Below are positions 3,345-55,695 of a DNA stretch of 64,000 nucleotides, piece after piece. The notes beneath the pieces were generated by a model, which saw only the letters and a program-made list of their open reading frames with translations, made no database searches and was not told the DNA's origin. This DNA comes from Sporomusa sphaeroides DSM 2875. GTDB taxonomy: Bacteria > Bacillota > Negativicutes > Sporomusales > Sporomusaceae. Numbering within the stretch: the first letter of the stretch is position 1; the number at the start of each line of letters is the position of its first letter. The position numbers were made by a program, and so were the translations under genes. The stretch spans positions 1,303,501-1,367,500 of the forward strand of contig NZ_CP146991.1 in NCBI RefSeq assembly GCF_001941975.2, written 5' to 3'.

Positions 3345-3348
3345 ACTA

Positions 3349-4473
3349 TCACCTTATCGAGCTATAGGAGTTAAAATAGGATTCTACAAAGTCTTCATTT
3401 TCTATGGCCTGTTTGTATACTTCAGGATAACTGTTTTTAATATCTTTCATGATTCCGATCATTAAATCTACCGGATAGGTTTTTAAAAACTCAATAAGTC
3501 TGTCAATATAACCGGGGGTGGCGGCAGCATTTTTTATGTTTGCTTCTAAGGCTTTTAGTATATTTTTGGCAGATAGATACAGTCTTGTATGACTTTCGTT
3601 TTTTACTCTTGTTATGATAGATTCCGGCAGAGCATCACAGGCAAAAACATCTTCATACGCTATCAGGAGATTGTAATCTGACTCAACAAAGCTGACAAAT
3701 TCTTCTGCAATGAGTTTTCCTACATTTCCTCTAATAACATTTACAAACACGGCCCTGGGTATGGCTGCTTTTTTCTCTTTGTAAATTTTGTAAATACTGG
3801 AGATTCTTTCATAGCTTCTGGGAGTAGCGTTTATGTCTTCTGTATTTATTTTATGCAAATAATCCGGGAAGGTGGAGATAAACTCTATAACCTTTTGCTC
3901 GATCCCGGCATCGATGGCCCAGGCTAACCACTGCTTGTAATCTGGTTCCATATATAGCCATACAAATCTATTCTCCTGCGCTGCATCCATATCGACAACC
4001 TGGTAATCAAGATCTGAACCATATTTATTTGAAGGATTCATAGCGGCTACTATTTTTACAGATTCATGCAACTTATAATCATTAATTTCCCTGTTTAAGA
4101 TGATGTTCATAAGCTCCTGTTGTACTGTATGCTCACAGCGATTGATTTCGTCGATAAATAGCAGAACAGTCTTGCCTTTAGCTATCTCTTCATCAATTTC
4201 CCGTAGTTTATTATGAACGGCATATACGGTGGTTTTCTTTTCCAGCGCCGCTCCTTTGGCAGTTACTTTTGTATAGGAATCTATGGTTGGCAGACCGCCA
4301 ATTTCACCTTCTTTAAGGAGGTTCCCATTGATAACAATTAAGCTCCAATTATTCATTCTGGCAATTTCCTTGGCCAAAGCCGTTTTTCCTATGCCGCTTT
4401 CACCAATGATTAGAGGTACTTCGCCGGTAGCCAGTACTAAGTCAACACTTTTTAATGTGTCTGTATAATTCAT
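3349..4473 (-). CDS. MoxR-like AAA+ ATPase
   Basis: 374-residue AAA+ protein. Walker A is GESGIGKT at residues 24-31 and Walker B is LLFIDE at 104-109; a sensor-1 Asn lies in the AAMNPSN segment and an arginine-finger region follows. The short N-terminus and the sequence after Walker A are typical of the MoxR/RavA branch. It lies 12 nt downstream of the repeat-protein gene and 4 nt upstream of the vWA metallopeptidase, so the three are very likely co-transcribed. By family analogy it would form a hexamer and use ATP to remodel a target handed over by the vWA partner. The target is unknown; the adjacent solenoid protein is the natural candidate for substrate or adaptor. Confidence 0.85.
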   Translation of the reverse strand: MNYTDTLKSVDLVLATGEVPLIIGESGIGKTALAKEIARMNNWSLIVINGNLLKEGEIGGLPTIDSYTKVTAKGAALEKKTTVYAVHNKLREIDEEIAKGKTVLLFIDEINRCEHTVQQELMNIILNREINDYKLHESVKIVAAMNPSNKYGSDLDYQVVDMDAAQENRFVWLYMEPDYKQWLAWAIDAGIEQKVIEFISTFPDYLHKINTEDINATPRSYERISSIYKIYKEKKAAIPRAVFVNVIRGNVGKLIAEEFVSFVESDYNLLIAYEDVFACDALPESIITRVKNESHTRLYLSAKNILKALEANIKNAAATPGYIDRLIEFLKTYPVDLMIGIMKDIKNSYPEVYKQAIENEDFVESYFNSYSSIR

Positions 4474-37710: not shown

Positions 37711-37805
37711 CTAAAGATATAACTAGTTTGAAGTAAGCATATGTTCAGAAATGTAAATCTTTGTCAATGATTTGTACAGATAATTGAAAATGTCAATAAT
37801 AAGTG

Positions 37806-37845
37806 AAACTCCTGCTAAATTTGTATTAATTTGGCAGGAGTTTTT
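37806..37845. repeat. dispersed CTCCTG...CAGGAG hairpin
   Basis: Arms AAACTCCTGC and GCAGGAGTTTTT around AAATTTGTATTAATTTG. Related copies occur at 40840, 47633 and 50101, with half-copies near 13175, 13960, 34416 and 36640. They probably work as terminators. Confidence 0.65.
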
Positions 37846-37947
37846 GCGTTTTGTAGGGAAGTTTCTAACTTGATAAATCTAGTAATATGGACTGATTCTG
37901 CAGAATCGTCCCAATTGAGCCAAAGATTTGGAATGTGGGTGAAATTT

Positions 37948-38712
37948 ATGCAAGATAATCGAAGAGAATTTTCAGATAATGAAAAAATGATTCTTTATAA
38001 CGAAGTGAATGGCAGATGTCCAATTTGTGGGGATGTTTTAACACATAGAAAAAAGAACAATCAGATTCATAAGACGTTTGAAGTTGCTCATATTTATCCG
38101 GCTAACCCTCGCCCAGAAGAAGTTGTACTATTGGCTCAGGAACAACGATTAAGCTCAGATGTAAATGATCTTAAGAATGTACTCGCTGTATGTCGCAAAT
38201 GTCATAAAATTTTTGATACTCCACGTACTATTGACGAATATCAGAAATGGTTTCGACTCAAACAAAAGTTAATTCAAGATACAGAAGTTAAAAGCACTTA
38301 TGTGATTTTTAATATCGAAGCTGAAATCAGAGAAATATTGGAAAAGCTCAACACACAATCACTTGAATCAGAGTTAGTTCAATTAAGTTATGAATCATTA
38401 AAAGTTGATCAAAAAACGAATGATACGCTACCCTTTGCAATTAAACGATCTATTAAACGAGATGTAGTAGATTATTTCGATTACATTAGAAGGCTTTTTA
38501 TTGAAATTGATAAAGTTACACCATATAAATTTAATACACTGGCTGCCCAAATCAAAGGTTTTTACTACAAATGTATGCAGGTTAATCCCAATCAAGAATA
38601 TGTATATAATTCACTAGTTGATTGGATTGACGAAAAGACGGATTCCTATTCTAGAAAAGCGTGTGAAATTGTCGTCGCATATTTCATCCAAGATTGTGAG
38701 GTATTCTCATGA
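37948..38712 (+). CDS. HNH nuclease effector of an ABC-three-component system
   Basis: 254 residues. An HNH/McrA-type zinc nuclease domain has C24-x2-C27 (RCPICGD), the catalytic-type His48 (EVAHIYP), Asn77 and C82-x2-C85-His86 (VCRKCHKIF). The C-terminal about 130 residues are helical and match the effector tail that docks with the middle component in ABC-3C systems. The start is the ATG at 37948; the longer TTG-initiated frame would begin inside the dispersed repeat. It overlaps the next gene by 4 nt. It is likely the DNA-cutting arm of an anti-phage system. Confidence 0.75.
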   Translation: MQDNRREFSDNEKMILYNEVNGRCPICGDVLTHRKKNNQIHKTFEVAHIYPANPRPEEVVLLAQEQRLSSDVNDLKNVLAVCRKCHKIFDTPRTIDEYQKWFRLKQKLIQDTEVKSTYVIFNIEAEIREILEKLNTQSLESELVQLSYESLKVDQKTNDTLPFAIKRSIKRDVVDYFDYIRRLFIEIDKVTPYKFNTLAAQIKGFYYKCMQVNPNQEYVYNSLVDWIDEKTDSYSRKACEIVVAYFIQDCEVFS

Positions 38713-38948
38713 TATTACCCAATAAGTTGATAGGATTTCAAGATAGCATTATTGCAAAAATGATTTATATTCTTGATGCAGTCAGTTTAGAAGATCAAAG
38801 CATTAGCAGTCTTTATAATAAAGTAAAGAATAACTTTGAAGATATAAATCAATATATTTTAGCATTAGATGTTCTTTTTACTCTTGAAAAAGTTGAATTT
38901 AATGAAAAGGCGCAGGTAATTACATATGTTAAAACAGATAATTTGTGA
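38709..38948 (+). CDS. ABC-three-component middle component
   Basis: 79 residues, small and helical (DSIIAKMIYILDAVSLEDQ; INQYILALDVLFTLEKVEF), of the size and position typical of middle-component winged-helix-like proteins in ABC-3C cassettes. Overlaps HNH gene (4 nt) and ATPase gene (23 nt), so it is translationally coupled to both. It bridges ATPase and effector by analogy. Confidence 0.7.
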   Translation: MILPNKLIGFQDSIIAKMIYILDAVSLEDQSISSLYNKVKNNFEDINQYILALDVLFTLEKVEFNEKAQVITYVKTDNL

Positions 38949-40551
38949 TAAGTTTGTTCAAAAGGAAATTATACTTGATGATGGATTAAACGCTGTTGTA
39001 GGCGATGATATTGCATCAAATTCTATTGGCAAATCAACGCTGCTAATGATTATTGATTTCCTTTTTGGCGGAGAAGATTATATAAAGAAAAATCATGATG
39101 CAATTGACCATTTAGGACACCATGAATTTAAGTTTCTGTTTGAATTTGCTGATGAAAAATTGTATTTTATAAGAACTACCAACGAATATAAATTTATAGC
39201 TGTTTGCAACGATAGATATGAAATACAAAAACGCATTAAAGTTGAAGAGTATACAAATCTTTTACAAGAGAAATATAAATGTCGACTTGAAGATTTAACT
39301 TTTCGGAATATAGTTGGCCGATATTTCAGAATATATGGTAAAGAAAATCTCAATGAAAGAAAGCCAATACAATATTTTGAAAAAGAAGCAGCAGCAAATT
39401 CGATAATCGTTCTGCTTAAACTTTTTGATAAATTTAAGATTATAAAAGAGTTTGAGGAGCAAATTGAAAAATTAACCGATGAACGGGCTATATTAATAGA
39501 AGCTGCAAAAAAAGATTTGATTCCACGGGTAACAAAAACTATATTTAATAAAAACGAAAAAAGGATAGTGGAGTTAAATCAGCAATTGGAAGCTTTAAAG
39601 ACTGAAATAATTAGTGCATCTGCAGACATCGAAGCTCTTATATCAAAAGAGGTATTATCGCTGCGAAAAGAAAAAAGTACATTAATTACAAAGGTTAATG
39701 TACTAAAGAACAGATTAATTCGCACTCAAACAAATCTCAAGAATAAGAATATCAACATTCAACCTGAACTTAAACAACTGCTTAACTATTTTCCAAGCTT
39801 TAATGTTGAACAAGTAGAAAAAGTTGATTCGTTTCATGAATCTATTACTAAAATCCTAAAAGAAGAATTACTCTGGGCAGAAAAAGAAGTTAAGGCCGAA
39901 ATATTAGAGATTGAAAAACAAATTCTTATTTTGGATGATACAATTAATTCTAAGTTGACAATACAAAATGCACCCAAATTTGCTATCGATAAAATCATTG
40001 AGTTAGCAGCACAAATTAATCAGCTAGGTGATGAAAATGGGTATTTTACAAAAAAGGAAAACTTAGATGATTCCATAAAGAGTGCAACTGAAAATCTAGA
40101 TATCTTAAAAGAAAAAGTCCTTGACGAAATGTGCAGTCAAATTAATATAAAAATGCATGAAATCAATAAGCAAATTTATATTGATGGCCGACGTGCACCT
40201 ACACTTAATATTCATGGCAATAAATACACTTTTAATACCTATGGAGATACTGGAACGGGTACTGCTTTTGCTAATTTAGTCACTTTTGATTTAGCGTTGT
40301 TGGATTTAACATGCTTACCAGCAATTGCTCATGATCTTCCACTACTCAAAAATATCGAAAATCTTGCTTTAGAGAATATTGTAGACATTTACAGCAAGAG
40401 TAGAAAGCAGGTTTTTATTGCAATAGATAAATTGAGCTCATATAGTAAAGATACTGCACAGTTGATTGAATCATGTAAAGTATTACAGCTTTCAAAGGAT
40501 AAACTCCTTTTTACAAAAAATTGGAAACAAGATAATCAAACTAATGCTTAG
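38926..40551 (+). CDS. DUF2326 SMC-like ATPase of an ABC-three-component system
   Basis: 541 residues. The Walker A is near the N-terminus (NSIGKSTLLMIIDFLFGG, residues 32-48), typical of DUF2326 ATPases. A long coiled-coil spans about 180-400 (IEKLTDERAILIEAAKK; LRKEKSTLITKVNVLKNRL). The C-terminal DUF2326 portion contains YTFNTYGDTGTGTAFANLV and the hydrophobic acid-bearing LPAIAHDLPLLKNIE. It is the sensor/motor of the cassette with the HNH effector and middle component; the ATP-driven trigger is unknown. The start overlaps the middle component by 23 nt. Confidence 0.8.
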   Translation: MLKQIICDKFVQKEIILDDGLNAVVGDDIASNSIGKSTLLMIIDFLFGGEDYIKKNHDAIDHLGHHEFKFLFEFADEKLYFIRTTNEYKFIAVCNDRYEIQKRIKVEEYTNLLQEKYKCRLEDLTFRNIVGRYFRIYGKENLNERKPIQYFEKEAAANSIIVLLKLFDKFKIIKEFEEQIEKLTDERAILIEAAKKDLIPRVTKTIFNKNEKRIVELNQQLEALKTEIISASADIEALISKEVLSLRKEKSTLITKVNVLKNRLIRTQTNLKNKNINIQPELKQLLNYFPSFNVEQVEKVDSFHESITKILKEELLWAEKEVKAEILEIEKQILILDDTINSKLTIQNAPKFAIDKIIELAAQINQLGDENGYFTKKENLDDSIKSATENLDILKEKVLDEMCSQINIKMHEINKQIYIDGRRAPTLNIHGNKYTFNTYGDTGTGTAFANLVTFDLALLDLTCLPAIAHDLPLLKNIENLALENIVDIYSKSRKQVFIAIDKLSSYSKDTAQLIESCKVLQLSKDKLLFTKNWKQDNQTNA

Positions 40552-40825: not shown

Positions 40826-40839
40826 TTACAATAAAATTT

Positions 40840-40876
40840 AAACTCCTGCTAAATTTGTATTAATCTGACAGGTTTT
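40840..40876. repeat. dispersed CTCCTG...CAGG hairpin, degenerate
   Basis: AAACTCCTGC with the same AAATTTGTATTAAT centre as the 37806 copy; the right arm is shortened to TGACAGGTTTTTG. Confidence 0.55.
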
Positions 40877-41005
40877 TGTATTTTTATGGCAAATAGTAAA
40901 AGTATCAAATGCGAAGTAGTTATAATATTAAAAATTCTACAGGAAAGGTTGAGTTCTTGAAAGTTTTAATTGCTTATTCGCTTATATTTGGGGAGGTGTA
41001 TACAA

Positions 41006-42382
41006 ATGAGAATTAAACAGATTTCTGTAAGTAAATTATTCGGGATGTTTGATCATGTAATTCCACTAAACTTAAATGAGCATATGACTATTGTTCACGG
41101 ACCTAACGGTTTCGGAAAAACAGCAATGCTAAGAGTTTTACATAGCCTATTTTCATCGAGAATTGACGTAATTAAAACCTACCCCTTTCAACAATTTCAA
41201 GTTATATTTGAAGATAATTCATTATTAAAGATTGCAAAAGTAATTGATAAAGAAGGAAAACTAGGAAGAATAGAAACGTTTCTATTTACGTATACAAATG
41301 AAGAGGGTGAAAATATATACAAACCATTCCATCAAAAGCTATCTATAAGGGCTGAGGACGTAATGCGTTATATTCCTCCGCGAGTTATAGAAAGAGAAAT
41401 TCCGGAAATAAGTAGAAATGGTGTTAATAAATGGTCGGATATTGAAACTGGTGAATTATTAGATATTCAAGCAGTTTTGGATAGATGGGGTTATAGAATA
41501 GTTCGATTGCTACCATCAAGTACAAAATCCAATATGCTTGATTTTGAACCTCCGTGGTTTGACGAGTTATCAAACAAAGTAAGAGTACGTTTTATTGATA
41601 CTAATAGATTACAGAATAAACCGTCTAGTCACAGAGTAAGTGAATATGAATCTAGAAATCGTGAACCAGTACCTATGATTCTTACAATTAGTAAAAAGAT
41701 AGCAAGCGCAATTCAAAAGGAGTTATCAAATTTTGCCCGGTTTTCTCAAGCATTAGATAGAACTTTTCCACAACGCCTATTGGAATCCAAAAAACAATCG
41801 GTTCAAAAGCTTAATAATGAAGAGTTAAATGCAAGACTTGAGGAATTAGAAAAAAAACGGTTACGTTTTATGAATGCAGGATTACTTGATATGGATGAGA
41901 CCACTGATTTTCAGATTCCTTTAAAATTTGACTCGACTCAAAGAAAGATTTTGTCTTTATACGTTCAAGATAATGAGGAAAAATTAAAAGTTTTGGATAA
42001 AATTGCAGCTCAAATAGAAGCCTTTTCTAATATAATCAATGGATTGTTTACATATAAGGAAATATCCTGCAACCGAGAAATAGGCATCAGTTTAAAAAAT
42101 AGAAATGGTGATCCCCTGGAGCTTGAAATGTTGTCATCTGGAGAACAACATGAAATTGTTCTTATGTATGAGTTATTATTTAATATAGAACCAGGTTCAT
42201 TAGTATTAATTGATGAACCGGAGATATCATTACACATAGCATGGCAACAAGAATTTTTAGCTAATTTGGGAGAAATTATTCAGTTGAGTTCCTTTGATAT
42301 CTTAATAGCTACGCATTCCCCTGCGATTGCGAGTAGTAGGTGGGATCTTACTGTCGATTTGGAGGGGAATATAGAATGTTAG
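41006..42382 (+). CDS. PARIS AriA-like AAA ATPase
   Basis: 458 residues from the ATG at 41006 (GGGGAGGTG upstream). Walker A GPNGFGKT at 32-39. Near the C-terminus come ABC-signature LSSGEQ (376-381), Walker B SLVLIDEPEISLH and the switch His in ATHSP, the AAA_21/AAA_15 arrangement. It overlaps a DUF4435 TOPRIM gene by 7 nt. AriA/AriB in PARIS defence have this order and size: AriA is the ATPase sensor that holds AriB and releases it on sensing a phage anti-restriction protein. Assignment is by architecture, not by alignment. Confidence 0.75.
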   Translation: MRIKQISVSKLFGMFDHVIPLNLNEHMTIVHGPNGFGKTAMLRVLHSLFSSRIDVIKTYPFQQFQVIFEDNSLLKIAKVIDKEGKLGRIETFLFTYTNEEGENIYKPFHQKLSIRAEDVMRYIPPRVIEREIPEISRNGVNKWSDIETGELLDIQAVLDRWGYRIVRLLPSSTKSNMLDFEPPWFDELSNKVRVRFIDTNRLQNKPSSHRVSEYESRNREPVPMILTISKKIASAIQKELSNFARFSQALDRTFPQRLLESKKQSVQKLNNEELNARLEELEKKRLRFMNAGLLDMDETTDFQIPLKFDSTQRKILSLYVQDNEEKLKVLDKIAAQIEAFSNIINGLFTYKEISCNREIGISLKNRNGDPLELEMLSSGEQHEIVLMYELLFNIEPGSLVLIDEPEISLHIAWQQEFLANLGEIIQLSSFDILIATHSPAIASSRWDLTVDLEGNIEC

Positions 42383-43329
42383 AGTCTGCTAAACCAGAAA
42401 CTATTGCAGGAATGATTATGCAGTCACGTAGAAAATTCAAAGGCAGTTATTTACTTGTGGAGGGAAAAACGGATTATAAAATATATAAATCCTATATAGA
42501 TAACGATACTTGCATAATTCAACCGACAGGAGGAAAAGGAAAAGCTAAAGAAGTCATTGCCTTTCTAGAACGATATAAACAAGCCAATGGAGTACTTGCT
42601 TGTGTAGATTTGGATTTTGAAACACTAAATCCACAACCCAGAAAAGAAAATGTTTTATATACAGATGTTAATAACTTAGAGACTATGATTATTTCATCCC
42701 CAGCATTTGATAAAGTTATGGAAAGATGGGGAGATCCTAAAAAAATATTATTATTCGAAAAAAGAATGGGAAAAGAATTGCGGTCATTCTTATTAGAATG
42801 TTGTCAACCTGTTAGTTTTTTAAAATATCTCTCAAATTACAATAATTTAGGTATTGATTTTAAAATGTTAGATTATGATTTATTTGTAAATGAGAAGGAT
42901 TTAACTATAAATATTGATGAGCTAATTAAGATTGCTGGTATAACTACAAAAACGCATTTTGATATTGCTTGTTTAAAAACAGAGCTTTCAAAGCTAGCAG
43001 CGAAAAATCTAAATGTGTGGTTAGTTTGTTGTGGACATCAATTAGTGAGAATACTTTCAATTGCTTTTAGATACTTAATCGGAAAGAATAAAACAAAAGG
43101 TAAGACTGTTTTACCATTCCATATACTACCATCAGAACTTGAGAATATTTTACATTGTTCATATGAGAGTTTATATTTTGCGAAGACTGAATTATGTAAG
43201 AATATAATAGAGTGGGAGCGGAAAAATTCACCTCATAAAATCCTCTTGCCGGTTTTTGATAAATTAATAGTTGATTATATCGAAATGGAATTGGACAATG
43301 CTACAGCCGAAGTAGCAGTTGCAAAATAA
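42376..43329 (+). CDS. PARIS AriB-like DUF4435 TOPRIM nuclease
   Basis: 317 residues from the ATG at 42376 (GGAGGGG upstream). TOPRIM-type residues: Glu29 in YLLVEGKTDYKIY and the DxD-like Asp78/Asp80 in ACVDLDFE, the DUF4435 signature. A glycine-rich PTGGKGKAKE lies between. In PARIS, AriB is activated by AriA and cleaves host RNA such as tRNA, causing abortive infection. A strong terminator follows at 43381. Retaining both active-site acidic residues suggests an active system. Confidence 0.75.
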   Translation: MLESAKPETIAGMIMQSRRKFKGSYLLVEGKTDYKIYKSYIDNDTCIIQPTGGKGKAKEVIAFLERYKQANGVLACVDLDFETLNPQPRKENVLYTDVNNLETMIISSPAFDKVMERWGDPKKILLFEKRMGKELRSFLLECCQPVSFLKYLSNYNNLGIDFKMLDYDLFVNEKDLTINIDELIKIAGITTKTHFDIACLKTELSKLAAKNLNVWLVCCGHQLVRILSIAFRYLIGKNKTKGKTVLPFHILPSELENILHCSYESLYFAKTELCKNIIEWERKNSPHKILLPVFDKLIVDYIEMELDNATAEVAVAK

Positions 43330-43427: not shown

Positions 43428-43740
43428 CTTGACTTACCACAAAATACTAATTACAATAAGAATAACACCTAACAAATAATCGATATCCATTTAATAGCGT
43501 ATGTAAACCCACCCGCAAGCAAATCCTAAACAATACCCATAAAAACGAGGTGAAGCCGATGTCTGAAAAGCACATTAACCACCTAGTCAACGAAAAGAGT
43601 CCATATCTATTGCAGCACGCGCATAATCCGATAGATTGGTATCCGTGGGGCGAAGAAGCGTTTGCCAAGGCTAAGGAAGAGGAAGAAGACAAACCGATTT
43701 TTTTTAGTTGTGGCTATAGTACGTGCCACTGGTGTCATGT
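43428..43740 (+). repeat. yyaL 5'-end duplication, copy B
   Basis: 313 bp, near-identical to 53477-53783, beginning at CTTGACTTACCACAAA and ending at the codons for CHWCHV. It differs by a 6-nt in-frame insertion (an extra Glu-Glu) and scattered substitutions, many synonymous. Confidence 0.9.
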
Positions 43741-44126: not shown

Positions 44127-46907
44127 ATGAACCCGAATTATAGAAAATACTGCTTAGCTGAGATTTGTGATGAATTCAGTAATTTAGATGGCACTGAACT
44201 AGAGATTGTCGGTCATATTATTCTTGAAGATATGTGTGGTCAGCAGCTTCAAATGCGTGGACATAATATTCAGGGAAAATCCGTAGGGTATACTCTTGAC
44301 TCCTACAATAATTTAGCAAGAATAGTGGGTGAGTATAGTACCGAGAAGGGGTATTTTGAAGGAAAGTTTAACAAGATTAGAAACGATATTCGCCATGCGA
44401 TCAAGCTTGCTCCACAGGTGCAGGTAATTCATCTGTTCTCGAACCAGAGTAAAGGGCCGAGCGCAGGGATGGCATTGGCAAAATTGTGCAACAGAATCCA
44501 AAAATTCACTAATCGAAGTGTTATCATATACGATGTGAGAGATGTGGCTGAATACTTATTGGATCATCTATTTATGAAGGAGATTGTGATCGAAAAAATT
44601 GTGGATTATTTCCCTTTACTACGAAAACTCTTAGATACACATAGTATTACTAACGCCGTACCCTCCATAGACAAAGGTTATATTGCTCGAACCAGCGACG
44701 AAACAGATATTATCAATAAAATGGATAATGGAAACCATTTATTGGTATCTGGTATTAGTGGTATTGGAAAGACAAGTTTAGTAATTTCAGTGTGCCATAG
44801 GATTAAGGAGCAGTTTGATCTAATCGTTTGGTTAGATGGAGCCGATGTCCATTGCCACAATCTCAGGTCAGTGTTAATCTCTCGCCTGGGAGTAAATCAA
44901 AATTTACTCGGGTTACTTAACACACATAAAACCCTTGTCATAATCGATGGACTTGAAAAAGATACTGTTAGTATAATCCAAGCTTTAGCAGAAAAGTGTA
45001 AGGCTGGCTCAAAAGTATTGGTTACCAGTCAACTGGAAGATGCTGGTGTTGATTGCCATGTCATAAACTCTATGAATGAAGATGAAAGTTATAATCTACT
45101 GAACAAAGATTTGAATGAACAATGTCCTAGGGATATTTTTTGCAAAATATACTCTAATGTAGGCGGGCACCCATTATTGCTATCACTTATAAATGCTTCG
45201 GTATACTTGAATGAGTTGTCTTGGAAAGATGTTGATAATGAGATTGACTATTTAACTGAATATGAAGACTATCGTTGTAATAGGATATGTGATAGGGTAA
45301 TTGGGAGACATATTGATGCTGTATCCATTGAACTTTCTGCTATCAGATGGCTCAATACTCAAACGATTGATTTTGGTGTTCTTAAGAGCTTGATAAAACA
45401 AATTGGGATAAACAAGCTAAAGAAGAGATGTTTACTGACTTTGCATAGCAACAAGGGAATTAAGGTTCACGATATTGTATATAGCAGTATTATGCGCGCA
45501 GATATCGAAGATCGCGATTTTATTGAACAGTTTCGTACATTCTTTGAAGCTCATGTTGAACAAAAAAGTCCTGCTTTCTTTAAGGGGCTTTATACTCACA
45601 AAGCAAAAATCATGGAATTACTTAATGGTAACCCTGAATTAGGTATTTTATTATATTGCTATCTTCATATAGTTGGTTACGGAGAACTGGATGTTGATCT
45701 CATTTCAAAAATTGACTATCGGAGGCTTCTGGCCAATGATTATGAATATACCGAAGTGGATTACTATTCACTAATCTCGCTAGTAGAGTTATTTGAGGTT
45801 GAAAGGAGAGATTATAGAGCTAGAAGTGGGGAGTTTCCGAGTGAATTGGCTGAGGGTACTGTAGAAAAACTAATTCAATGTATCAATATTAAAAAGTTGC
45901 CTGGTGATGTCATAATTCAGGTAAAACATCATCTCGGTAAGTTCTATTTGCAAGCTTTACATAACAGCAAAGCTGCTAAGGAGTATTTTAATGAATCTTT
46001 ACAGAATCCAAAAACCGAATTCGCTGCTCGGTTGCAACTTGCTAGAATTTACAAGAAGGAAGATATTGAAACGTCGAAAACATACTTAAAACAGATCTTT
46101 GAGTCATTTAAACTTGATAATAATTCTGTTAGCCCGACTACTATTCTTGGTGCTTTTGAAGATCTGCGTTCAAAAGAATATAGTGATTTAAGGGATACAT
46201 ATTTAGATGATAGCGATTTGCTAGAGACAGCGTTATTCCTGAGTTGTAACGAGAGTTTCGATCAACCGTTTAGGGTATTGGCTAATCTTTCTGGTCACCT
46301 CACATATAAATACCCCGAAAGAACTAAAGCAATAATTAGGGAAATGCCTATTCCCTCCGAGGAGAATGTTGGGAGGTGGGCCTTTGTAGCAGGTGAATTA
46401 TATAAGGAAATGGGAAAATGTTATCTATGGGATGAATCACCTGATGAAGCTTTAGCTCGCTCTACCTTTAGCCAAGCTAAAGCATACTATGCAAAGATAG
46501 AAGATAGATGCAACCCTTTCGAAGGTATCAAAATTGCAGAAAATTATATTCTTCTTAATGAGGGAGATAATGCTATAAGGATACTTATTCAGTTTTCTGA
46601 AGAGAAGAGGGATTCCTTTTGGTATTATAGATTTGCACAGGCACTCTCGTTAATCGCTAAAGAAAATGAAGCTCTAGAAGCTATTAACACCGCGCTTGGT
46701 AAGCTGAAACTAATGCAATACGAAAGCACATTCAGGCGTGAAAAAGCAAAAATTCTAGAGAAATTGGATAATATGAATTTTATTACCGAATACCAGCTAG
46801 CATGGAGACTTGCCGAGATCGAAAAATACAAGAAACAGATGGAAAGGGAAGTGGCTCTTATAGCAGAAAAAAGAAAAATAAGCATATCGCTGGTAGCCGA
46901 TCAGTGA
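44127..46907 (+). CDS. STAND (NLR-like) NTPase with nuclease-like N-terminus and TPR-like C-terminus
   Basis: 926 residues, ATG after CTAAGGAGGAGCA. Residues about 20-140 resemble a PD-(D/E)xK-type endonuclease module: ILEDMCGQQLQMRGHN, Asp58 in VGYTLDSY and Glu69 in IVGEYSTEKG, followed by helices. NB-ARC/NACHT-like NTPase: Walker A SGISGIGKTSL (about 208-218) and Walker B LVIIDG (270-275). The C-terminal half is helical repeats (e.g. AKEYFNESLQNPKTEFAARL), probably TPR-like target-sensing repeats. This is the architecture of Avs/NLR-like anti-phage sensors. The third catalytic Lys position of the nuclease is not certain, so activity is unproven. Confidence 0.75.
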   Translation: MNPNYRKYCLAEICDEFSNLDGTELEIVGHIILEDMCGQQLQMRGHNIQGKSVGYTLDSYNNLARIVGEYSTEKGYFEGKFNKIRNDIRHAIKLAPQVQVIHLFSNQSKGPSAGMALAKLCNRIQKFTNRSVIIYDVRDVAEYLLDHLFMKEIVIEKIVDYFPLLRKLLDTHSITNAVPSIDKGYIARTSDETDIINKMDNGNHLLVSGISGIGKTSLVISVCHRIKEQFDLIVWLDGADVHCHNLRSVLISRLGVNQNLLGLLNTHKTLVIIDGLEKDTVSIIQALAEKCKAGSKVLVTSQLEDAGVDCHVINSMNEDESYNLLNKDLNEQCPRDIFCKIYSNVGGHPLLLSLINASVYLNELSWKDVDNEIDYLTEYEDYRCNRICDRVIGRHIDAVSIELSAIRWLNTQTIDFGVLKSLIKQIGINKLKKRCLLTLHSNKGIKVHDIVYSSIMRADIEDRDFIEQFRTFFEAHVEQKSPAFFKGLYTHKAKIMELLNGNPELGILLYCYLHIVGYGELDVDLISKIDYRRLLANDYEYTEVDYYSLISLVELFEVERRDYRARSGEFPSELAEGTVEKLIQCINIKKLPGDVIIQVKHHLGKFYLQALHNSKAAKEYFNESLQNPKTEFAARLQLARIYKKEDIETSKTYLKQIFESFKLDNNSVSPTTILGAFEDLRSKEYSDLRDTYLDDSDLLETALFLSCNESFDQPFRVLANLSGHLTYKYPERTKAIIREMPIPSEENVGRWAFVAGELYKEMGKCYLWDESPDEALARSTFSQAKAYYAKIEDRCNPFEGIKIAENYILLNEGDNAIRILIQFSEEKRDSFWYYRFAQALSLIAKENEALEAINTALGKLKLMQYESTFRREKAKILEKLDNMNFITEYQLAWRLAEIEKYKKQMEREVALIAEKRKISISLVADQ

Positions 46908-47148: not shown

Positions 47149-47433
47149 ATGACCAGAAGAAAACGGCGAGAATACACAGATGAATTTAAAAATCAAATGG
47201 TACAGTTATATGTAAGCGGTAAACCACGATCAGAAATCATACGAGAATATGATTTAACCGAAAGTGCATTTGATCGTTGGCTAAAGCAAGGCCAGTCCAC
47301 AGGATCTTTTCGAGAAGCAGATAACCGAAGTACAGAGGAAAATGAATTAATCCAGCTTCGCAAAGAAAATCAACGCCTGAAGATGGAAAACGACATCCTA
47401 AAGCAAGCAGCGCTGATCTTAGGACGAAAGTAA
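47149..47433 (+). CDS. IS3 transposase OrfA
   Basis: 94 residues: EYTDEFKNQMVQLYVSGKPR, helix-turn-helix (IIREYDLTESAFDRWLKQG) and leucine-zipper tail (LRKENQRLKMENDILKQAAL). GGGAGAGTAACT precedes the ATG. It has no functional partner, so it is likely inert or only a regulator. Confidence 0.9.
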   Translation: MTRRKRREYTDEFKNQMVQLYVSGKPRSEIIREYDLTESAFDRWLKQGQSTGSFREADNRSTEENELIQLRKENQRLKMENDILKQAALILGRK

Positions 47434-47618
47434 CTGTAATTCGGCAAAATGCCCACAAGTACTCAGTATCAGCATTGTGCAACGTCCTACAAGTGAATCG
47501 AAGCACGTATTATTACGAGTCGAAACCTCGCCCCGTAGACAATGCAGTGGAAGAGAGGGAGGCTCATTACCCCTTTTCTGCACTGTTTGACCCATATGGA
47601 GAGAAATACCATTGGTAG
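47430..47618 (+). pseudogene. truncated IS3 OrfB
   Basis: About 62 codons in the -1 frame: VIRQNAHKYSVSALCNVLQV, then NRSTYYYESKP. It terminates before the DDE core, near PYGEKYHW. Confidence 0.8.
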
Positions 47619-47632
47619 AGGTGCTGGATAAG

Positions 47633-47672
47633 GACTTCTGTCAGATTTGTGATAATTTGGCAGGAGTTTTTT
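47633..47672. repeat. dispersed CTTCTGTC...GGCAGGAG hairpin
   Basis: Member of the CTCCTG family with centre AGATTTGTGATAATTTG and arm GGCAGGAGTTTTTT. It is followed by 200 bp without a gene before the dGTPase. Confidence 0.6.
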
Positions 47673-47868
47673 AGTTGTAGGAGGAATTTTGTGGATTATG
47701 CTATAGCTGTGATTGAATTCATGGGATTGCGGAGATGAGTTTGCAAAAAGTGTATTGTAATAGGATGTCGTGGGACGAGTAACCTGTCCCTTTAGCTTTA
47801 ACATGATTTGCTAAAGATAGATTGTAGAGAATTACTGCAGTTTACACTATATTTATAGGGGTGATTTC

Positions 47869-49755
47869 ATGAGCAAGTTTATTATGATAAAAGCGAAGAA
47901 CTCTTTACCTTCTCTTAAATTTTTAGAAGAAAGTTACAATACCAAAGGAGAAGAAAGACATTTTAACGTTACAGGAAGTGGCTCTGATAAGGCGGCAGTG
48001 AGAGGTTTGTCGGATGATTCTTATCCTGTTTATATTTTAGTATTTTCTGAGATAGGTGCTGAGCAGAAAGTAGAATATCTTTATCTTGGTTCAGGTACTA
48101 AATGCGGTTCAGAGCGTAGCCTTTCACTAAGAGTATCAATTTTACAAAAGGTTTTAAACCAATCAGTTATCGAGAATTTTCTGTCTTGTTCTGAAATTGA
48201 CTTAACTCAAGACTTTGATTATGCCTCTTATATATCCGTTGAAAACTCTCCAAGCCTGGTTAAGCAAATGAATTTTATTACCTATCCTTTATATAAAAAT
48301 ACTGAGATATTGCAAATAGATACATATACTGTTGTAGATGAAGAAAAATCATTACACTCCTTGGCCCAACGAAATGAATACTGTATTAGAGAATATGCAT
48401 CTGTTAGAGCAGAATACAATCGCGGGGAATTTCAAAGAGATTATGAGCGTATAGTGCATTCAAAAGCATTTAGGCGAATGGTAGATAAAGCACAGATATT
48501 TTCAGCTGAAAAGGGCGACCACTATAGAACACGCATGACACATTCGATTGTAGTTAGCCAAATTGCCAAAGGGATAAGCAATGCCCTTAAATTGAACAAC
48601 TTCTTGACGGATGCAATTGCTTTAGGCCATGATATGGGACATACTCCATTTGGACATCAGGGTGAACGAACTCTAAATGCAGTATTAACTGGAGAAAAGC
48701 CTTTATTAAAAAGTGTTATAGAAGAGGGGGCTACCTATGGGGGATTTAAGCATAACTATCATTCACTTAGGGTAGCAACCAGGTTGGAGGAAAAATATAT
48801 TGAGTTTGATGGATTGAATCTGTCATTTCAAACTCTTGATGGTATTTGGAAACATACCAAAACAAACTTGCCCAATAACCCCCTTATTAATTTTGTTTCA
48901 TCTAGTACATTGCATGCATATTTGAATAGTGAACCTATTCCACGTACCCCAGATGGGCAAGTAGTTCCATATACCTTAGAGGGGCAAGTAGTTAGGGTTG
49001 CGGACGAAATTGCTCAGCGAAGCCATGATTTAGAAGATGCCTTTTCCGCTAAAAGACTAACAGTTGAGGAACTCAAAAATTATTTGCTTCTTGGAAAAAT
49101 GCACGAGTTAAAAACTCAAATTGAACAAATAGAAGAAGGTTTCATCGAAGCAAAAAAATCTAACCACTTTGGTGCTGACGATGATGAACTGTTGCAAGAA
49201 CGTATATCATCAAGAATTATATACTATTTTATAAACGACGTACTTACTCAATCTAATACGAATATCGATAGTTATCTCTTAGCCGATGGAAAATCTAAAT
49301 TTGAGAAAAATGGACATAAAGTTGACAAACTGCTTATCGAGTTTTCTCTTAAAGGAAAAAATCTTTGTGATTATCTTGAAAAGATTATCTCAAAAAAAGT
49401 TATTAACAGTGGAGAAGTGTCTTTATTTGATAGTAATGGTGCGGCAGTAATTGAATCTCTTTTTGCTTCATATTATAATAATCCGCGCTTATTACATAGA
49501 GGCACACTTCGTAGAATAATGCAAGATTTTCGTAAAATCACAAAAAATGTTGTTGACTTTGAAGAAGGTGACCCACTTATTATTGAAAAAGAATGGCGCA
49601 AAATCATAAATGCAAAAGCAAATAAAGAAGATCGTGATTTGGAAGAGAATGAATATTTTCTGAAAAACAGAGTGCTTGTAAGAAATATTACTGATTTTAT
49701 TGCGGGCATGACCGATTCTTATGCAATAAACGAATATAATAATATCCGTCGTTAG
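47869..49755 (+). CDS. dGTPase with about 165-residue N-terminal extension
   Basis: 628 residues. The C-terminal about 440 residues are a dGTP triphosphohydrolase: FQRDYERIVHSKAFRRMVDKA, then HD motifs (His225 in RTRMTHSI; His254-Asp255 in ALGHDMGHTPFGHQGE) and VRVADEIAQRSHDLEDA. The N-terminal extension has YPVYILVFSE, YLYLGSG and SLRVSILQKVL, loosely like a GIY-YIG fold, and is not part of ordinary Dgt (about 400-500 residues). dGTPases deplete dNTPs and some protect bacteria from phage. The island setting supports such a role. The extension may be a sensor or nuclease; this is inference. A terminator follows at 49811. Confidence 0.8.
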   Translation: MSKFIMIKAKNSLPSLKFLEESYNTKGEERHFNVTGSGSDKAAVRGLSDDSYPVYILVFSEIGAEQKVEYLYLGSGTKCGSERSLSLRVSILQKVLNQSVIENFLSCSEIDLTQDFDYASYISVENSPSLVKQMNFITYPLYKNTEILQIDTYTVVDEEKSLHSLAQRNEYCIREYASVRAEYNRGEFQRDYERIVHSKAFRRMVDKAQIFSAEKGDHYRTRMTHSIVVSQIAKGISNALKLNNFLTDAIALGHDMGHTPFGHQGERTLNAVLTGEKPLLKSVIEEGATYGGFKHNYHSLRVATRLEEKYIEFDGLNLSFQTLDGIWKHTKTNLPNNPLINFVSSSTLHAYLNSEPIPRTPDGQVVPYTLEGQVVRVADEIAQRSHDLEDAFSAKRLTVEELKNYLLLGKMHELKTQIEQIEEGFIEAKKSNHFGADDDELLQERISSRIIYYFINDVLTQSNTNIDSYLLADGKSKFEKNGHKVDKLLIEFSLKGKNLCDYLEKIISKKVINSGEVSLFDSNGAAVIESLFASYYNNPRLLHRGTLRRIMQDFRKITKNVVDFEEGDPLIIEKEWRKIINAKANKEDRDLEENEYFLKNRVLVRNITDFIAGMTDSYAINEYNNIRR

Positions 49756-49810
49756 TTTTTCGTTGTTATCCACTCAACGAAGAACCGTATCACTAGTAAT
49801 GGCGAAAAAA

Positions 49811-49843
49811 GGGCTCAACCTTTATATGATAAGGGTTGAGTCC
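49811..49843 (+). terminator. terminator of the dGTPase gene
   Basis: Arms GGGCTCAACC and GGGTTGAGTCC around a short loop, 55 nt past the stop. T-tract is short. Confidence 0.65.
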
Positions 49844-50225
49844 TTTGAAACAGGTCTCTACTAGGTCATATTTTAACCTTTTCAGCAATATATTTTGAAC
49901 TTGTAAACATTTTTGCCTGATTCTGACAAGAAAAATTACTGCAAATGGCATTTAGACATGCGAGATAAATCTAAGAACATATGTGCGAAGTGGGAAAAGA
50001 TCAAATTTATTACGGAGCAATGAGGACAGACCTCATTGCTACTTCCAGCACTGTTTGGACCGATAGAGAACTGTACCATTGGTAATGGCGAAAACGTTGA
50101 ACTCCTGTCAAAGTTATGATAATTTGACAGGAGTTCTTATAGTTTTAAGGAATAAAAAATATATAGGGGATTACGGAGTGTAAACGTTATCAAAGTACTG
50201 GGAGGTATTAAGGTACCGTCAAGAT
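49844..50225. other. gene-free stretch with hairpins
   Basis: Contains a 10-bp hairpin AGCAATGAGG/CCTCATTGCT (50016-50040). It also has a sequence shared with 47590 and 46950 (GAGAGAA-TACCATTGGTA-ATGGCGAAAA type) and the 50101 hairpin. No gene is supported. Confidence 0.45.
50101..50135. repeat. dispersed CTCCTGTC...GACAGGAG hairpin
   Basis: ACTCCTGTCAAAGTTATGATAATTTGACAGGAGTTC without its T-tract; arms pair over 12 bp with compensating change (GTCA/TGAC) relative to the GC/GC copies. Confidence 0.65.
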
Positions 50226-51558
50226 AGTTTCGCAAATTAGTTTGCAATCCGTATTAAGTAAAATCAGTCAGCACTAAAATCCGACTCAAGGCCGGTAGTT
50301 TCTAAGTGTTTCATATTCATATACTTTTTGCTGCCCCACTGGGTTCCGGCAACGTGACGAAGACGGGCACAAACCAACATGAGAGCCGATTGGCCATCGG
50401 GGAAGGTGCCAACTACCCGCGTCCGACGCCTAATTTCCCGATTTAGTCGTTCAATTACATTGTTGGTGCGGATCCTCGTCCAATGCTCAAAGGGAAACTC
50501 TGTATAAGAGAGGGTTTCATCAATGCTGTTTTCTATTTTAGCGGCAGCTTCCTTAAGCTTCATTTCTAGTAAAGTTTTAGCTACCTGTTTAGCCTTTTCT
50601 TGGGCGGACTGCTTACTTTCCTGAGCATGAATGGCTTTTAGCATTTTGGCGACTACTTTCACTTTGGAACGTGGAACAACGGAGAATACATTCCGGTAAA
50701 AATGAACGGTGCAACGTTGGTATTTTGCTTCAGGGAATACTTCGTTCACAGCTTCCAACATACCAAGGCATTTGTCCCCAATAACAAGTTTAACACCATG
50801 TAAGCCACGGCCTTTCAGCCATTTGAAGAACTCTGTCCAACTCGCTTTGTCTTCTTTCATGCCTTCGGCGGCACCGATGACTTCACGATAGCCATCTTCA
50901 TTGACTGCAATAGCTACAAGTATGCTTACATTCTCATATTCGCCGCCCCAATTGCGCCTCAGATAAATGCCATCTACATAAACGTAGGGATATTTCCCGC
51001 TTTGCAACGGGCGGCTCCGCCATTGTTCGATATGGACATACGCTTTCTTATTTAACTCACTGATGGTGGATGGGGATACTTTGGTGCCCCATAGCGCCTC
51101 GGTAATATCCTCAACTCTACGAACAGAAACTCCGGCCAGATACATTTCAATAAGGGCTTCTTCGACAGAGCTTTCCCTACGCCGATACCGTTCAATGATA
51201 GCCGTTTCAAAAGGAATGCCTTTGAGTTTCGGGACTTTAAGGGTTACATTCCCGGAGGTGGTTGTTAGATTCCTATCGTAGTGACCTGAGCGATACCCTT
51301 GTCGTGATTCGGTTCGCTCGTATTTGGCCGCTTGGGTCAGATCTCTAGCCTCCTGATCCAAAAGATTATTTAGTGTTTCCTCCACGCTGCTGCGTACTAG
51401 TTCTTTTAATTCTCCCTTGATGATTTCCTCGTTCAACTGTATAATTTCCTTGGACATGTTTGCAGTCTCCTTTCGGTAAATGGTGTTGTGGTGACTTCAT
51501 TTTACCTTTTGGACTGCAAACTTGTCCTCTTTTTTCTCTTAATTCAATTTGCGAAACT
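50226..51558 (-). mobile_element. IS256-family insertion sequence
   Basis: About 1333 bp with ends AGTTTCGCAAATT and AATTTGCGAAACT. No matching 8-9 bp target duplication was found (GTCAAGAT versus TATTGTAC), so one flank may have been rearranged. It truncates the neighbouring gene at 51561. Confidence 0.8.
50264..51457 (-). CDS. IS256 transposase
   Basis: 397 residues, the usual size for the family. Mutator-type DDE: Asp in PYVYVDGIYL, Asp in LVIGDKCLGML and Glu in NNVIERLNREIRRRTRVVGTF; it includes the GYRSGHYDRNL N-terminal region and the C/H motif QRCTVHFYRN. AAAGGAGACTG precedes the ATG. It appears intact. Confidence 0.92.
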   Translation of the reverse strand: MSKEIIQLNEEIIKGELKELVRSSVEETLNNLLDQEARDLTQAAKYERTESRQGYRSGHYDRNLTTTSGNVTLKVPKLKGIPFETAIIERYRRRESSVEEALIEMYLAGVSVRRVEDITEALWGTKVSPSTISELNKKAYVHIEQWRSRPLQSGKYPYVYVDGIYLRRNWGGEYENVSILVAIAVNEDGYREVIGAAEGMKEDKASWTEFFKWLKGRGLHGVKLVIGDKCLGMLEAVNEVFPEAKYQRCTVHFYRNVFSVVPRSKVKVVAKMLKAIHAQESKQSAQEKAKQVAKTLLEMKLKEAAAKIENSIDETLSYTEFPFEHWTRIRTNNVIERLNREIRRRTRVVGTFPDGQSALMLVCARLRHVAGTQWGSKKYMNMKHLETTGLESDFSAD

Positions 51559-51560
51559 TA

Positions 51561-52580
51561 TTGTACATTATCGGTATTAATTTGCAAGCGATATGTTATA
51601 GAAATACAAAAACTACAATACCTGGCTGGGTAGATAATATTCATAAAGAACAGCCCAGAGGCTATGCGTATGAAACAGATACACATTTTGTGCATTTTTA
51701 TGGTCGAGATAATAGATTTTATGTTATTTCCCCTGGACTTACTGTTTTAGAAAAGAAGCATGGATCTTTAGAAGATTGGGTAAAACGAGTATTTGAGGCG
51801 AATCATATTGCACCTATGATAATGGACGTTGGACATACAAAAGATGGGGTATGGCGGCCAGGTTTATACTTTCAGGAAGAACTAATTCAAGGACTAGATA
51901 TTACACGAATTCAGCAACGTTCAGCCGAACAAGCTCTAAGGGTTCTGGTGGAAAAGCTTGATGAGATTTTATTGTATATTGAGCCTGATAAGGCTGGTCT
52001 TGATTCATATAGTCACAAAACACGTGAACTATTAATTCTTTCTTGTACTGAATTAGAAAACCAATGGAAGTCTTTTATAAGTAAGGCAGGTGTAGGGCCA
52101 ATTAATGGGAGAATGTTTACTACACAAGATTACGTTAAATTACTAAAGCCTTTATGTCTAAAAGAATTTCAGGTTAAGCTTAGAAATTATGATAGTGTAC
52201 CAATTCTTCAACCATTTAATGATTGGGATATCGCTTCACCTACTCAGTCATTATTTTGGTATGATGCTTACAATAAAACAAAACATGATAGAGATAAGCA
52301 TTTTAATTCATCAAAATTAATTAATGTAATGCTATCCGTTGCGGCAAACTTGGTTCTCTTTTGCATACAATTTGGCCCATTTCACCTTTTAAATGAAACA
52401 AAAACCCTATCAACAATAGTGAATCAAACGTTTGAAATAGAAATGGTAAACTGCGATGTGAATAGATTTTATATACCTTTGGTTTTATTGCCTAATAATA
52501 CAAGAGCGGATTTATTATGTTATGATTCCTTTAGAGAAGGGCATATTCAAAGATGGGAAGTTGATCCATTAGTCATATAA
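51561..52580 (+). pseudogene. hypothetical gene truncated at its 5' end by IS256
   Basis: About 339 codons remain open from the IS256 edge to TAA at 52580. Distinctive segments: FVHFYGRDNRFYVISPGLTV, WRPGLYFQEELIQGLD, and SLFWYDAYNKTKHDRDKHF. The latter recalls HEPN-like or toxin-associated helical proteins, but I cannot assign a family. No start codon with a ribosome site survives; the frame otherwise is undamaged. It may be a former defence gene. Confidence 0.6.
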
Positions 52581-53476: not shown

Positions 53477-53783
53477 CTTGACTTACCACAAAATACTAAT
53501 TATAATAAGAATAACATCTAACAAATAATTAATATCGATTATATAGCGTATGTAAACCCACCTACAAGCAAATCCTAAACAATACCCATAAAAACGAGGT
53601 GAAGCCAATGTCTGAAAAGCACATTAACCACCTAGTCAACGAAAAGAGTCCATACTTACTGCAGCACGCACACAACCCCATAGACTGGTATCCCTGGGGT
53701 GAAGAAGCGTTTGCCAAGGCTAAGGAAGAAGACAAGCCGATATTTTTTAGTTGCGGCTATAGTACGTGCCACTGGTGCCATGT
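53477..53783 (+). repeat. yyaL 5'-end duplication, copy C (host gene)
   Basis: 307 bp matching copy B at 43428-43740. It includes about 130 bp of leader and the first about 58 codons of the intact gene. Confidence 0.9.
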
Positions 53784-55695
53784 CATGGAACGGGAATCTT
53801 TCGAAAACCAAGACGTTGCGGCGTTGTTAAATAACTATTTTGTTGCCGTCAAGGTTGACCGGGAAGAGCGGCCGGATGTTGACCATATTTATATGGCGGT
53901 GTGCCAGGCTGTGACCGGGCAGGGTGGCTGGCCGCTGACTATTGTGATGACACCTGATAAGAAGCCGTTTTTTGCCGGGACGTACTTGCCTAAGCATGCC
54001 AAATGGGGCAGGCCTGGGATTATGGAAGTCTTGTCAATGCTGAAGGAACAGTGGGATCAAAACCGGGATAAGATTGAGGAAATTGGCGAAAAGCTGGCGC
54101 AATCCCTGAAACAGCCCGCGCTTAAGCCGGAGGCGGGGCAATTATCCCAAGCAACCCTGGAGCGTGCCTTTTCCCAACTGTTAAATGACTTTGACCCCAA
54201 CCATGGCGGATTTGGGACTGCGCCTAAGTTTCCCACACCACACAACTTATTGTTCCTGATGCGCTATTGGCGGCGAACAGGCGATAAGAAGGCCATTGCC
54301 ATGGTAATCAAGACTCTGGATGCGATGAGTCGCGGGGGGATTTATGATCATCTGGGCTATGGTTTTGCCCGCTACTCAACAGATGCCAAATGGCTGGCAC
54401 CGCATTTTGAGAAAATGCTGTATGATAATGCCCTTTTATGTTACGCCTATGTTGAAGCTTATCAATGCACAGACGATCCGGATTTTGCCCGTATTGCCGG
54501 GGAAATAATTTCCTATGTGCTGCGGGATATGACGAGTCCGGGTGGCGCGTTTTATTCTGCTGAAGATGCTGATTCAGAAGGGGTAGAAGGCAAGTTTTAC
54601 ATATGGTCGCGGCAGGAACTGCTGGAACTCTTGGGGCCGGAGCTTGGGGAATTGTTTGCCGATGTATATAATGTCACGCCGGAGGGCAATTTTGAGGCCG
54701 GCGACAATATTTTGAATCTGATTTCCCGTGACTTGTATGACTATGCCGCCCAGCATGATCTTGATATCCATGAGCTTGAGGAAAAAATGGCTGAGGCCAG
54801 GCAGCTCCTCTATCAGGCGCGTGAGCAACGGATACCTCCGTTTAAGGATGATAAGATTCTGACAGCCTGGAATGGACTGATGATTGCCGCTTTGGCTAAG
54901 GCAGCCAGAGTGTTGCAGCGGGAAGAGTATGCTGAAGCTGCTGAACGGGCGGTAGAATTTGTTTTTACCAAACTTACTGCCGAGGACGGTAAGCGGCTGT
55001 TGGCCCGCTACCGGGATGGCCATGCGGCGTATCTGGGCTATGTCGATGATTATGCCTTCCTGCTCTGGGGTTTGCTGGAGGTCTATGAAACCACCTTTAA
55101 TCCGAAATATTTGCGCCAGGCATTGGAGATCAGCGAAGAGCTTACACGGCTATTCTGGGACAAAGAAAATGGCGGGTTTTATTTTACCGGGAATGACGGC
55201 GAGGAATTGCTGCTGCGTCCGAAGGAGATTTATGATGGCGCTATCCCATCGGGAAATTCGGTGGCTGCCCTGGCTTTACTTAAACTGGCACGGTTAACTG
55301 AGGATAATAAGTATATTACACTGGTTGAAACTATGTTTAGCTGTTTTAGCCGCGAAGTGCAGCATTATCCCCGGGCCTATACATACTTTCTGTTAGCGCT
55401 CGATTACTACTTGTCTGTTCCCAGTCATATTGTTATCGCCGGCGAACGCGAAGACCCTGAAGTGCAGGCCATGCTGGCAGTTGCCGGGGGAAGGTTTATG
55501 CCGGAAACTACCGTTGTTTATAATGACCCGGTATATCAGACCGATAATTGGGAACTAATACCTGTAGCAGCCGGTCAGGAAGCAGTGGGTGGCCGCGCCA
55601 CCGGTTATATTTGCGAAAACTTTGCCTGCCGGCGTCCTGTTCATACGCTTGCAGAATTTGAGCAGATGCTCACTAAACAAAGGGTAGGACAATAA
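53608..55695 (+). CDS. yyaL: thioredoxin-domain protein, DUF255/YyaL family
   Basis: 695 residues. An N-terminal thioredoxin-like domain carries the CxxC motif CHWC ([15 protein letters not shown]). The six-hairpin glycosidase-like alpha/alpha barrel follows (e.g. [52 protein letters not shown]). The family is widespread (bacterial YyaL, mammalian SPATA20), of unknown biochemical role, probably cytosolic. The start is the ATG at 53608 with GAGGTG upstream. Its 5' region is the recombination or integration site duplicated in the island. GC-richer body than the island suggests a core gene. Confidence 0.9.

Follow-up and report, generated by a model that had tools for sequence, protein, structure and literature searches.

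Among described systems, those closest to the gene considered here are the anti-phage deoxyguanosine triphosphatases (dGTPases), represented by SpdGTPase of Shewanella putrefaciens CN-32 (NF041026; PADLOC model dGTPase), and Clover, which consists of the dGTPase CloA and the nucleotidyltransferase CloB. One report (PMC12265719) gives the HD motif and the HE dyad as defining features of dGTPases and attributes the restriction of phages by anti-phage deoxynucleoside triphosphatases (dNTPases) to a disturbed nucleotide pool. For Clover the same report describes off/on control in molecular detail (PMC12265719): dTTP switches CloA on and the inhibitory nucleotide p3diT holds it off, the control point being the N-terminal region, where p3diT is bound via residues that include R29, R34 and R38. 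Here we analyse a stretch of 64,000 nucleotides from Sporomusa sphaeroides DSM 2875 (NZ_CP146991.1, positions 1,303,501 to 1,367,500; hereafter the window, to which all coordinates refer unless another locus is named), in which a gene on the + strand (47869..49755) encodes a dGTPase preceded by an N-terminal extension.

The fusion protein shares with the anti-phage dGTPases the HD fold, the catalytic motif and, in the window, a defence setting. It differs from them in carrying a 160-residue extension outside the matched stretches, and since it reaches only 190.9 bits against NF041026 (cut-off 400) it lies outside that named family. The likeness to Clover is that of a dGTPase effector with its N-terminal side in control. 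However, the fusion protein is closer in sequence to the Thermus enzyme 2dqb than to CloA, its regulation would come from the fused domain, and there is no CloB-type nucleotidyltransferase among the flanking open reading frames (ORFs) scanned (44127-46907, 47149-47433, 50264-51457 and 51549-52577). A preliminary description of this DNA, made from the letters alone, knew of no defence protein of this form. The literature matches listed agree in containing no dGTPase fusion of this sort, which is weak evidence of absence as most subscription journals are uncovered.

The gene is a single ORF of 628 aa with no internal stop, and its start codon is preceded by a good ribosome site (AGGGGTGATTTCATG). 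Residues 185-626 belong to TIGR01353 (241.1 bits, cut-off 152.35), the PADLOC dGTPase model covers residues 171-626 (E 6.7e-79), and the closest solved sequence, Thermus thermophilus 2dqb (E 1.2e-42), aligns from residue 185; dGTPase homology thus sets in at about residue 171-185. We divide the protein into the extension proper (residues 1-160, 47869..48348), a junction (residues 161-184, 48349..48420) with the motif H-x-LAQ-[RK]-NEYC, which is common to the four proteins with a recognisable extension, and the dGTPase domain (residues 185-628, 48421..49752), all on the + strand. The last methionine before the boundary is M134 and the next is M204; with none at residues 135-203 there is no ATG able to start a free-standing dGTPase. 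An artefact of frame or start is ruled out by the start, the ribosome site, the lack of an internal methionine and the conservation described below.

H225, H254, D255 and D379, together with the H263/E266 dyad, are invariant in all four fusion relatives (positions assigned by motif). We take H225, H254, D255 and D379 to be the metal-ligand set. Judged by its sequence, the C-terminal part is an HD-type dGTPase with intact catalytic residues and is predicted to hydrolyse dGTP. An AlphaFold model of the fusion protein was built from a 22-row alignment, and the fold search with it covered residues ∼ 169-628. The modelled dGTPase part superposes on 2dqb with Z 35.4 (root-mean-square deviation (rmsd) 2.0, 319 aligned; residues 174-628), on the Shewanella anti-phage dGTPase 9p8w with Z 28.1 (rmsd 3.2, 361 aligned) and on CloA 9p8s with Z 27.8 (rmsd 3.2, 367 aligned). 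Just before D379 lies a 27-nt imperfect tandem duplication (48938..48991, + strand); its extra residues are present in the window protein and in a close relative from genome G040, and absent from the relatives L018 and L098.

The preliminary description had put the extension at about 165 residues and regarded it as missing from a normal Dgt. Both points are borne out, as the conserved dGTPase start motif is preceded by 190 residues in the fusion protein, compared with 42 in the Dgt of the host (L002), so that the extra part measures ∼ 150-165 residues. Its further statement, that the dGTPase is fused to an unfamiliar N-terminal domain, agrees with the intact 628-aa ORF, the TIGR01353 match and the lack of any Pfam family above cut-off in the extension. 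A Pfam scan of residues 1-174 alone returned no family at E ≤ 10. When the whole protein was scanned, residues 97-139 gave a sub-threshold match to the phage HU inhibitor family PF25723 (E 0.046, 14.3 bits versus 27); we rejected this identity, as the match is below cut-off and vanishes when residues 1-174 are scanned alone. The extensions of the G040 protein and of L098 have weak Pfam matches (E 0.012-0.19) to mutually unrelated families.

Three other proteins share the extension, with whole-protein identities to the window protein of 93% (G040), 67% (Sporobacter termitidis, L018) and 46% (L098). The last is a full-length relative (2187-4136, MT838302) on a 5.4-kb faecal scaffold that is unannotated, 'unverified' and deposited as 'Bacteriophage sp.', and that may be viral or bacterial. 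Point estimates of the ratio of non-synonymous to synonymous substitution rates (dN/dS) for the extension and the enzyme part are 0.58 versus 0.25 in the comparison with G040, 0.23 versus 0.10 with L018, and 0.71 versus 0.21 with L098, where sites are near saturation. Since the extension is kept in three other proteins with dN/dS below 1, it is neither a chance product nor a frame error. By these estimates its rate of evolution would be roughly double that of the enzyme part, and the identity between the window protein and L098 is 24% in the extension and 53% in the enzyme part. Its conservation, the dN/dS values below 1 in all three comparisons and the abundance of strands in both low-confidence models also speak against a disordered linker.

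The fusion is rare. A search for the extension among 380 genomes of the class found two positives, the host genome and G040, and among 398 genomes drawn from the phylum only the host genome was positive, which excludes a common Dgt appendage; two other classes gave none in 46 and none in 82 genomes, in searches that held no positive control. Scans of viral contigs with the window protein, a four-row alignment, L098 and L005 (a G014 locus, see below) yielded no relatives. No plasmid record has one place covering 80% of the fusion protein, and a plasmid search gave no match for the L098 extension.

A tree of 53 dGTPases unites the four proteins with a recognisable extension in one group (97/93), which is joined by a protein from genome G014 (L005:985-2928; 99/94). 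The 332-aa Dgt of the host (L002) is placed elsewhere, apart from this clade. Left out of the tree were seven dGTPase rows that lack the anchor motif (L048, L069, L093, L096, L009, L016 and L003, the last being a paralogue from the host), all but the first three of the Pelagibacteraceae rows that begin MNNYSK, ORFs of < 300 aa and seven duplicate loci. Two further dGTPase-like genes are present in the host genome. At its N-terminus the G014 protein carries a stretch of comparable length, with unmatched sequence and four tryptophans. Its homology to the other extensions is unproven: hmmsearch gives -0.4 bits, and shuffled sequences score as well in 5-9 of 300 trials for three members and in 110 of 300 for the fourth. 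A 545-aa dGTPase from G005 (L006) is placed as sister to the fusion clade, a position that is unsure because of its long branch. A further clade-like dGTPase from G384 (240 bits) lies outside the tree. The translations of these last two lack such an extension.

The fusion gene of the window stands among candidate and recognised defence genes. The preliminary description had spoken of a defence island, and hidden Markov model (HMM) matches to ABC-3C-like, PARIS-like and STAND neighbours confirm this (coordinates below). In Sporobacter it lies among PDC-S53, a weakly mREase_II-like protein, a PDC-S49 KAP ATPase and further candidates. The extension-less dGTPase of G005 adjoins a type I restriction-modification (R-M) locus and GajA, and that of G384 adjoins IetA/IetS and a PbeA-like protein. 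Of the seven loci looked at that belong to the clade or resemble its members, four (window, Sporobacter, G005 and G384) have defence genes as neighbours. At the G005 locus (L006:1444-4063) the gene right after the dGTPase encodes a GIY-YIG/DUF4357 protein (PDC-S14) and heads the type I restriction locus.

The borders of the gene are cassette-like. The block common to the window and G040 spans 47638-49784 and is 94.5% identical over 2147 positions; in G040 ∼ 20 bp separate its beginning from the stop codon of a SPOUT_MTase gene (PF02590, E 9.3e-45), which is cut at the contig end. We take PF02590 to be the family of RlmH. The window holds three copies of a pattern resembling the 3' end of rlmH (Glu-x-Tyr-His-[Trp]-stop). 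Both strands of the 64 kb were scanned, and all three copies are on the + strand, around the fusion gene, with a hairpin after each. The left one (47601..47618, E-K-Y-H-W-stop) is followed by a terminator-like hairpin at the left edge of the shared block (47630..47671), found by folding and by a mismatch scan. The second (49782..49796, E-P-Y-H-stop) marks the right edge of the block and precedes a terminator-like hairpin of different sequence (49808..49846), and the third (50068..50085, E-L-Y-H-W-stop) precedes a hairpin at 50099-50136. The hairpin family of 47638 recurs in the window at 37812, 40846, 50105 and 13957. It also occurs after rlmH in G040 (L103:10475-10560) and upstream of the G005 dGTPase, and at no other locus in the 189 sequences scanned with ≤ 4 mismatches (1.396 Mb, some overlapping; the host DNA flanking the window accounts for 100 kb of this). 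On folding, five of six hairpins, 49808 among them, were far better than shuffled sequences (z -5.8 to -8.6); that at 40838 was not.

Staphylococcal cassette chromosome (SCC) elements are found at rlmH. In G040 the insertion likewise lies next to the rlmH 3' end; in the window itself only rlmH-tail-like repeats surround the cassette, and there is no rlmH gene in the window, in the 60 kb to its left or in the 40 kb to its right. The cassette differs from SCC in having one gene and no ccr recombinase and in lying outside the staphylococci; the shared block 47638-49784 contains no other long ORF and no ccr recombinase, a recombinase elsewhere in the genome not having been looked for. On the simplest reading of these sequences, the fusion gene would by itself form an SCC-like cassette whose insertion site is the end of rlmH, and the repeats in the window an array of rlmH-tail remnants. 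This suggests that single-gene SCC-like defence cassettes exist at rlmH outside the staphylococci, and borders of this kind would extend SCC-like movement to single genes there.

We propose that the fusion gene encodes a single-gene anti-phage dGTPase or dNTPase effector that is gated by its fused N-terminal regulatory domain, and we put the probability of this at about one half. The C-terminal dNTPase would lower dGTP, and perhaps other deoxynucleoside triphosphates (dNTPs), and the loss of dNTPs would stall phage DNA replication. The N-terminal module would keep the enzyme off in healthy cells and release it on infection, and so do in cis the work that separate regulators or allosteric nucleotides do in other dGTPases; a domain fused at the N-terminus would be well placed to act on the control region used in CloA. 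With a dNTPase controlled in this way, sensor and effector could be tested together within a single polypeptide.

Several observations weigh against such a role in defence, for which the neighbouring genes argue through guilt by association. The preliminary description had proposed a survey for the same fusion near other defence genes. Known defence neighbours were found at two of the five extension-bearing loci, the window and Sporobacter, and none at the other three. Around the G014 gene are genes for RND efflux, a TetR regulator and an ABC transporter, and PADLOC matched none of the eight neighbours scanned; the G040 contig, which ends near the gene, shows rlmH, transposase-like ORFs and a chemotaxis receptor; and beside L098 the one ORF scanned had no match. 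Because the G014 and G040 neighbours are not defence genes, our confidence in the effector is lower, and that in an ordinary metabolic dGTPase, whose appendage would be neutral and which would lie by chance in an island of mobile genes, is higher. The two further dGTPase-like genes of the host genome also favour a metabolic enzyme. We nevertheless think it unlikely, since the fusion clade is distinct from the housekeeping Dgt, four of the seven loci lie beside defence genes, the gene seems to move as a cassette, and the extension has a dN/dS below 1.

The fold of the extension is predicted with low confidence. An AlphaFold model of the extension from a two-row alignment has a mean predicted local distance difference test (pLDDT) score of 42; four other models reached 25-30. 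In a VIA-align search with this model, 44 of the 50 PDB entries listed are titled as YTH, Mmi1, THYN1/DUF55 or McrB N-terminal domains. The remainder are one DrmAB entry and five without a functional title, which we presume to be of EVE type. The Z values of the listed entries run from 7.1 (6p0f, rmsd 4.0, 128 aligned) down to 5.2, and Foldseek leans the same way, its best match being a YTH domain (E 0.013). Our leading guess from these matches is that the extension may be a rapidly evolving barrel of the PUA/EVE/YTH type, with nucleic acid or a modified base as its ligand. Structure prediction, proposed in the preliminary description as a check, has in this way yielded YTH/EVE-type matches, though weak ones, from a model with pLDDT 42 and with Z values within the noise. 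The tool itself describes Z values in this range as common, and the PDB is rich in YTH entries, so the likeness is a hint only. Other results also count against a gate of this kind. In sequence comparisons with 40 EVE domains taken from related genomes the extension scored at decoy level, no EVE or YTH Pfam match was found in it at E ≤ 10, and a PDB search with a profile of the four relatives returned chance-level chains only (best E 0.036), with no YTH/EVE chain at E ≤ 10. The extension has no tryptophan in any of the four members, and a search of the viral library BFVD with the extension model was incoherent.

Readers of the EVE/YTH/PUA-like type are known as fusions to restriction proteins (the YTH domain of TgMcrB, EVE-HNH), which the fusion protein would resemble in its weakly predicted fold and in the logic of reader and effector. 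It differs in that its extension has neither sequence support nor tryptophan and in that the effector would be a dNTPase, not a nuclease or the McrB GTPase. A complete device of this type, a PUA/EVE/YTH-like reader by which foreign or modified nucleic acid triggers dNTP depletion instead of DNA cutting, spread by insertion of a minimal cassette at the rlmH 3' end, we consider quite improbable. If true, the reading of foreign or modified nucleic acid would drive dNTP depletion in a one-gene immune device. We hold it possible, if short of probable, that the extension is instead a new fold or family that serves in oligomerization or as a protein-protein sensor, for example of a phage dGTPase inhibitor, and does not read nucleic acid. 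This would account for the lack of a sequence family above cut-off, and evolution about twice as fast as that of the enzyme part is what would be expected of a surface that meets phage proteins. The PDB contains E. coli dGTPase bound by T7 Gp1.2, an example of a phage protein that binds this enzyme.

The preliminary description had also seen GIY-YIG-like strands in the extension and thought of a nuclease-like or sensor domain. The nuclease half of that suggestion is not supported, and a sensor or regulatory domain is the better reading. GIY- and YIG-like strings are present in the window extension at the spacing of GIY-YIG domains, in which the catalytic set is Tyr, Tyr and Arg. Across the four members, however, the GIY-type tyrosine is Y/Y/Y/F, the YIG-type tyrosine Y/Y/Y/F and the next arginine R/R/E/I. 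PF01541 gives no match at E ≤ 10 in the extensions of the window protein, G040, L018, L098 or G014, and DUF4357 was not found in them by Pfam scan. A profile-profile comparison with 23 GIY-YIG/DUF4357 proteins (rows that include one locus twice, as L006 and L115) reached 19.1, while the best of 100 column-shuffled decoys reached 20.7, and a repeat that took 50 decoys per target out of 100 generated was likewise within the decoys; in an HMM search against GIY-YIG the Sporobacter member ranked 149th (E 25). With variable catalytic positions, no Pfam match and profiles at decoy level, an active GIY-YIG nuclease is rejected.

A decayed GIY-YIG domain akin to PDC-S14 (GIY-YIG + DUF4357), now a non-catalytic module for DNA binding or oligomerization, would fit the strand motifs at the right spacing and the two tyrosines kept in three of four members, and there is one suggestive set of alignments. 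The Sporobacter extension aligns collinearly over residues 36-159 with the PDC-S14 protein L118 (local Z 6.0) and over residues 31-159 with L112 (5.8), with none of 500 shuffles as good in either case; these are the best of 115 pairs tried. In the same test the window protein, though 60% identical to the Sporobacter protein over this region, reaches a best Z of only 2.7. Both low-confidence models moreover place a strand after the YIG-like strand, where GIY-YIG domains have their Arg helix, GIY-YIG is absent among the listed fold matches of the extension model, and the HMM and profile results and the variable Tyr and Arg positions given above apply here too. Compared with PDC-S14 itself, the extension thus has GIY/YIG-like strand motifs in some members and lacks both conserved catalytic positions and a detectable DUF4357. 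The G005 locus, with its PDC-S14 gene next after a related dGTPase, could be taken as further support; this adjacency may be a coincidence, because the PDC-S14 gene heads a type I R-M locus, and for the same reason we rejected the pair as a split form of the fusion. Among 30 short loci around PDC-S14 matches the only dGTPase is that of G005. On balance we regard descent from a GIY-YIG domain as improbable.

To the left of the fusion gene, on the + strand, HMM matches identify an HNH + ABC-3C CTD11 protein (37831..38712) and a DUF2326 protein (38926..40551), which together make up the ABC-3C-like pair. They are followed by the PARIS-like pair, an AriA-like ATPase (40970..42382; PADLOC E 4.7e-27) and an AriB-like DUF4435 protein (42340..43329; E 4.8e-19), and by an NB-ARC STAND protein (44127..46907), which has HMM matches and no PADLOC match. 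Members of the hairpin family without a visible rlmH tail stand just before the ABC-3C-like pair (37805-37845) and the PARIS-like pair (40842-40898, degraded), which gives the entire island the look of a row of cassettes like that of the fusion gene. An IS3-family orfA-like remnant (47149..47433, + strand) lies upstream of the fusion gene and an IS256-family transposase (50264..51457, - strand) downstream, both by HMM matches. Between IS256 and the duplicated DUF255 region is a 343-aa ORF (∼ 51549-52580) with no Pfam match at E ≤ 0.01. The duplication comprises ∼ 310 bp at 43428-43740 and 53477-53783 (89-92% identity), 10 kb apart. It reaches the 5' end of a DUF255 thioredoxin-like gene (53599-55695), brackets the STAND gene, the fusion gene and IS256, and resembles a scar left by insertion or recombination.

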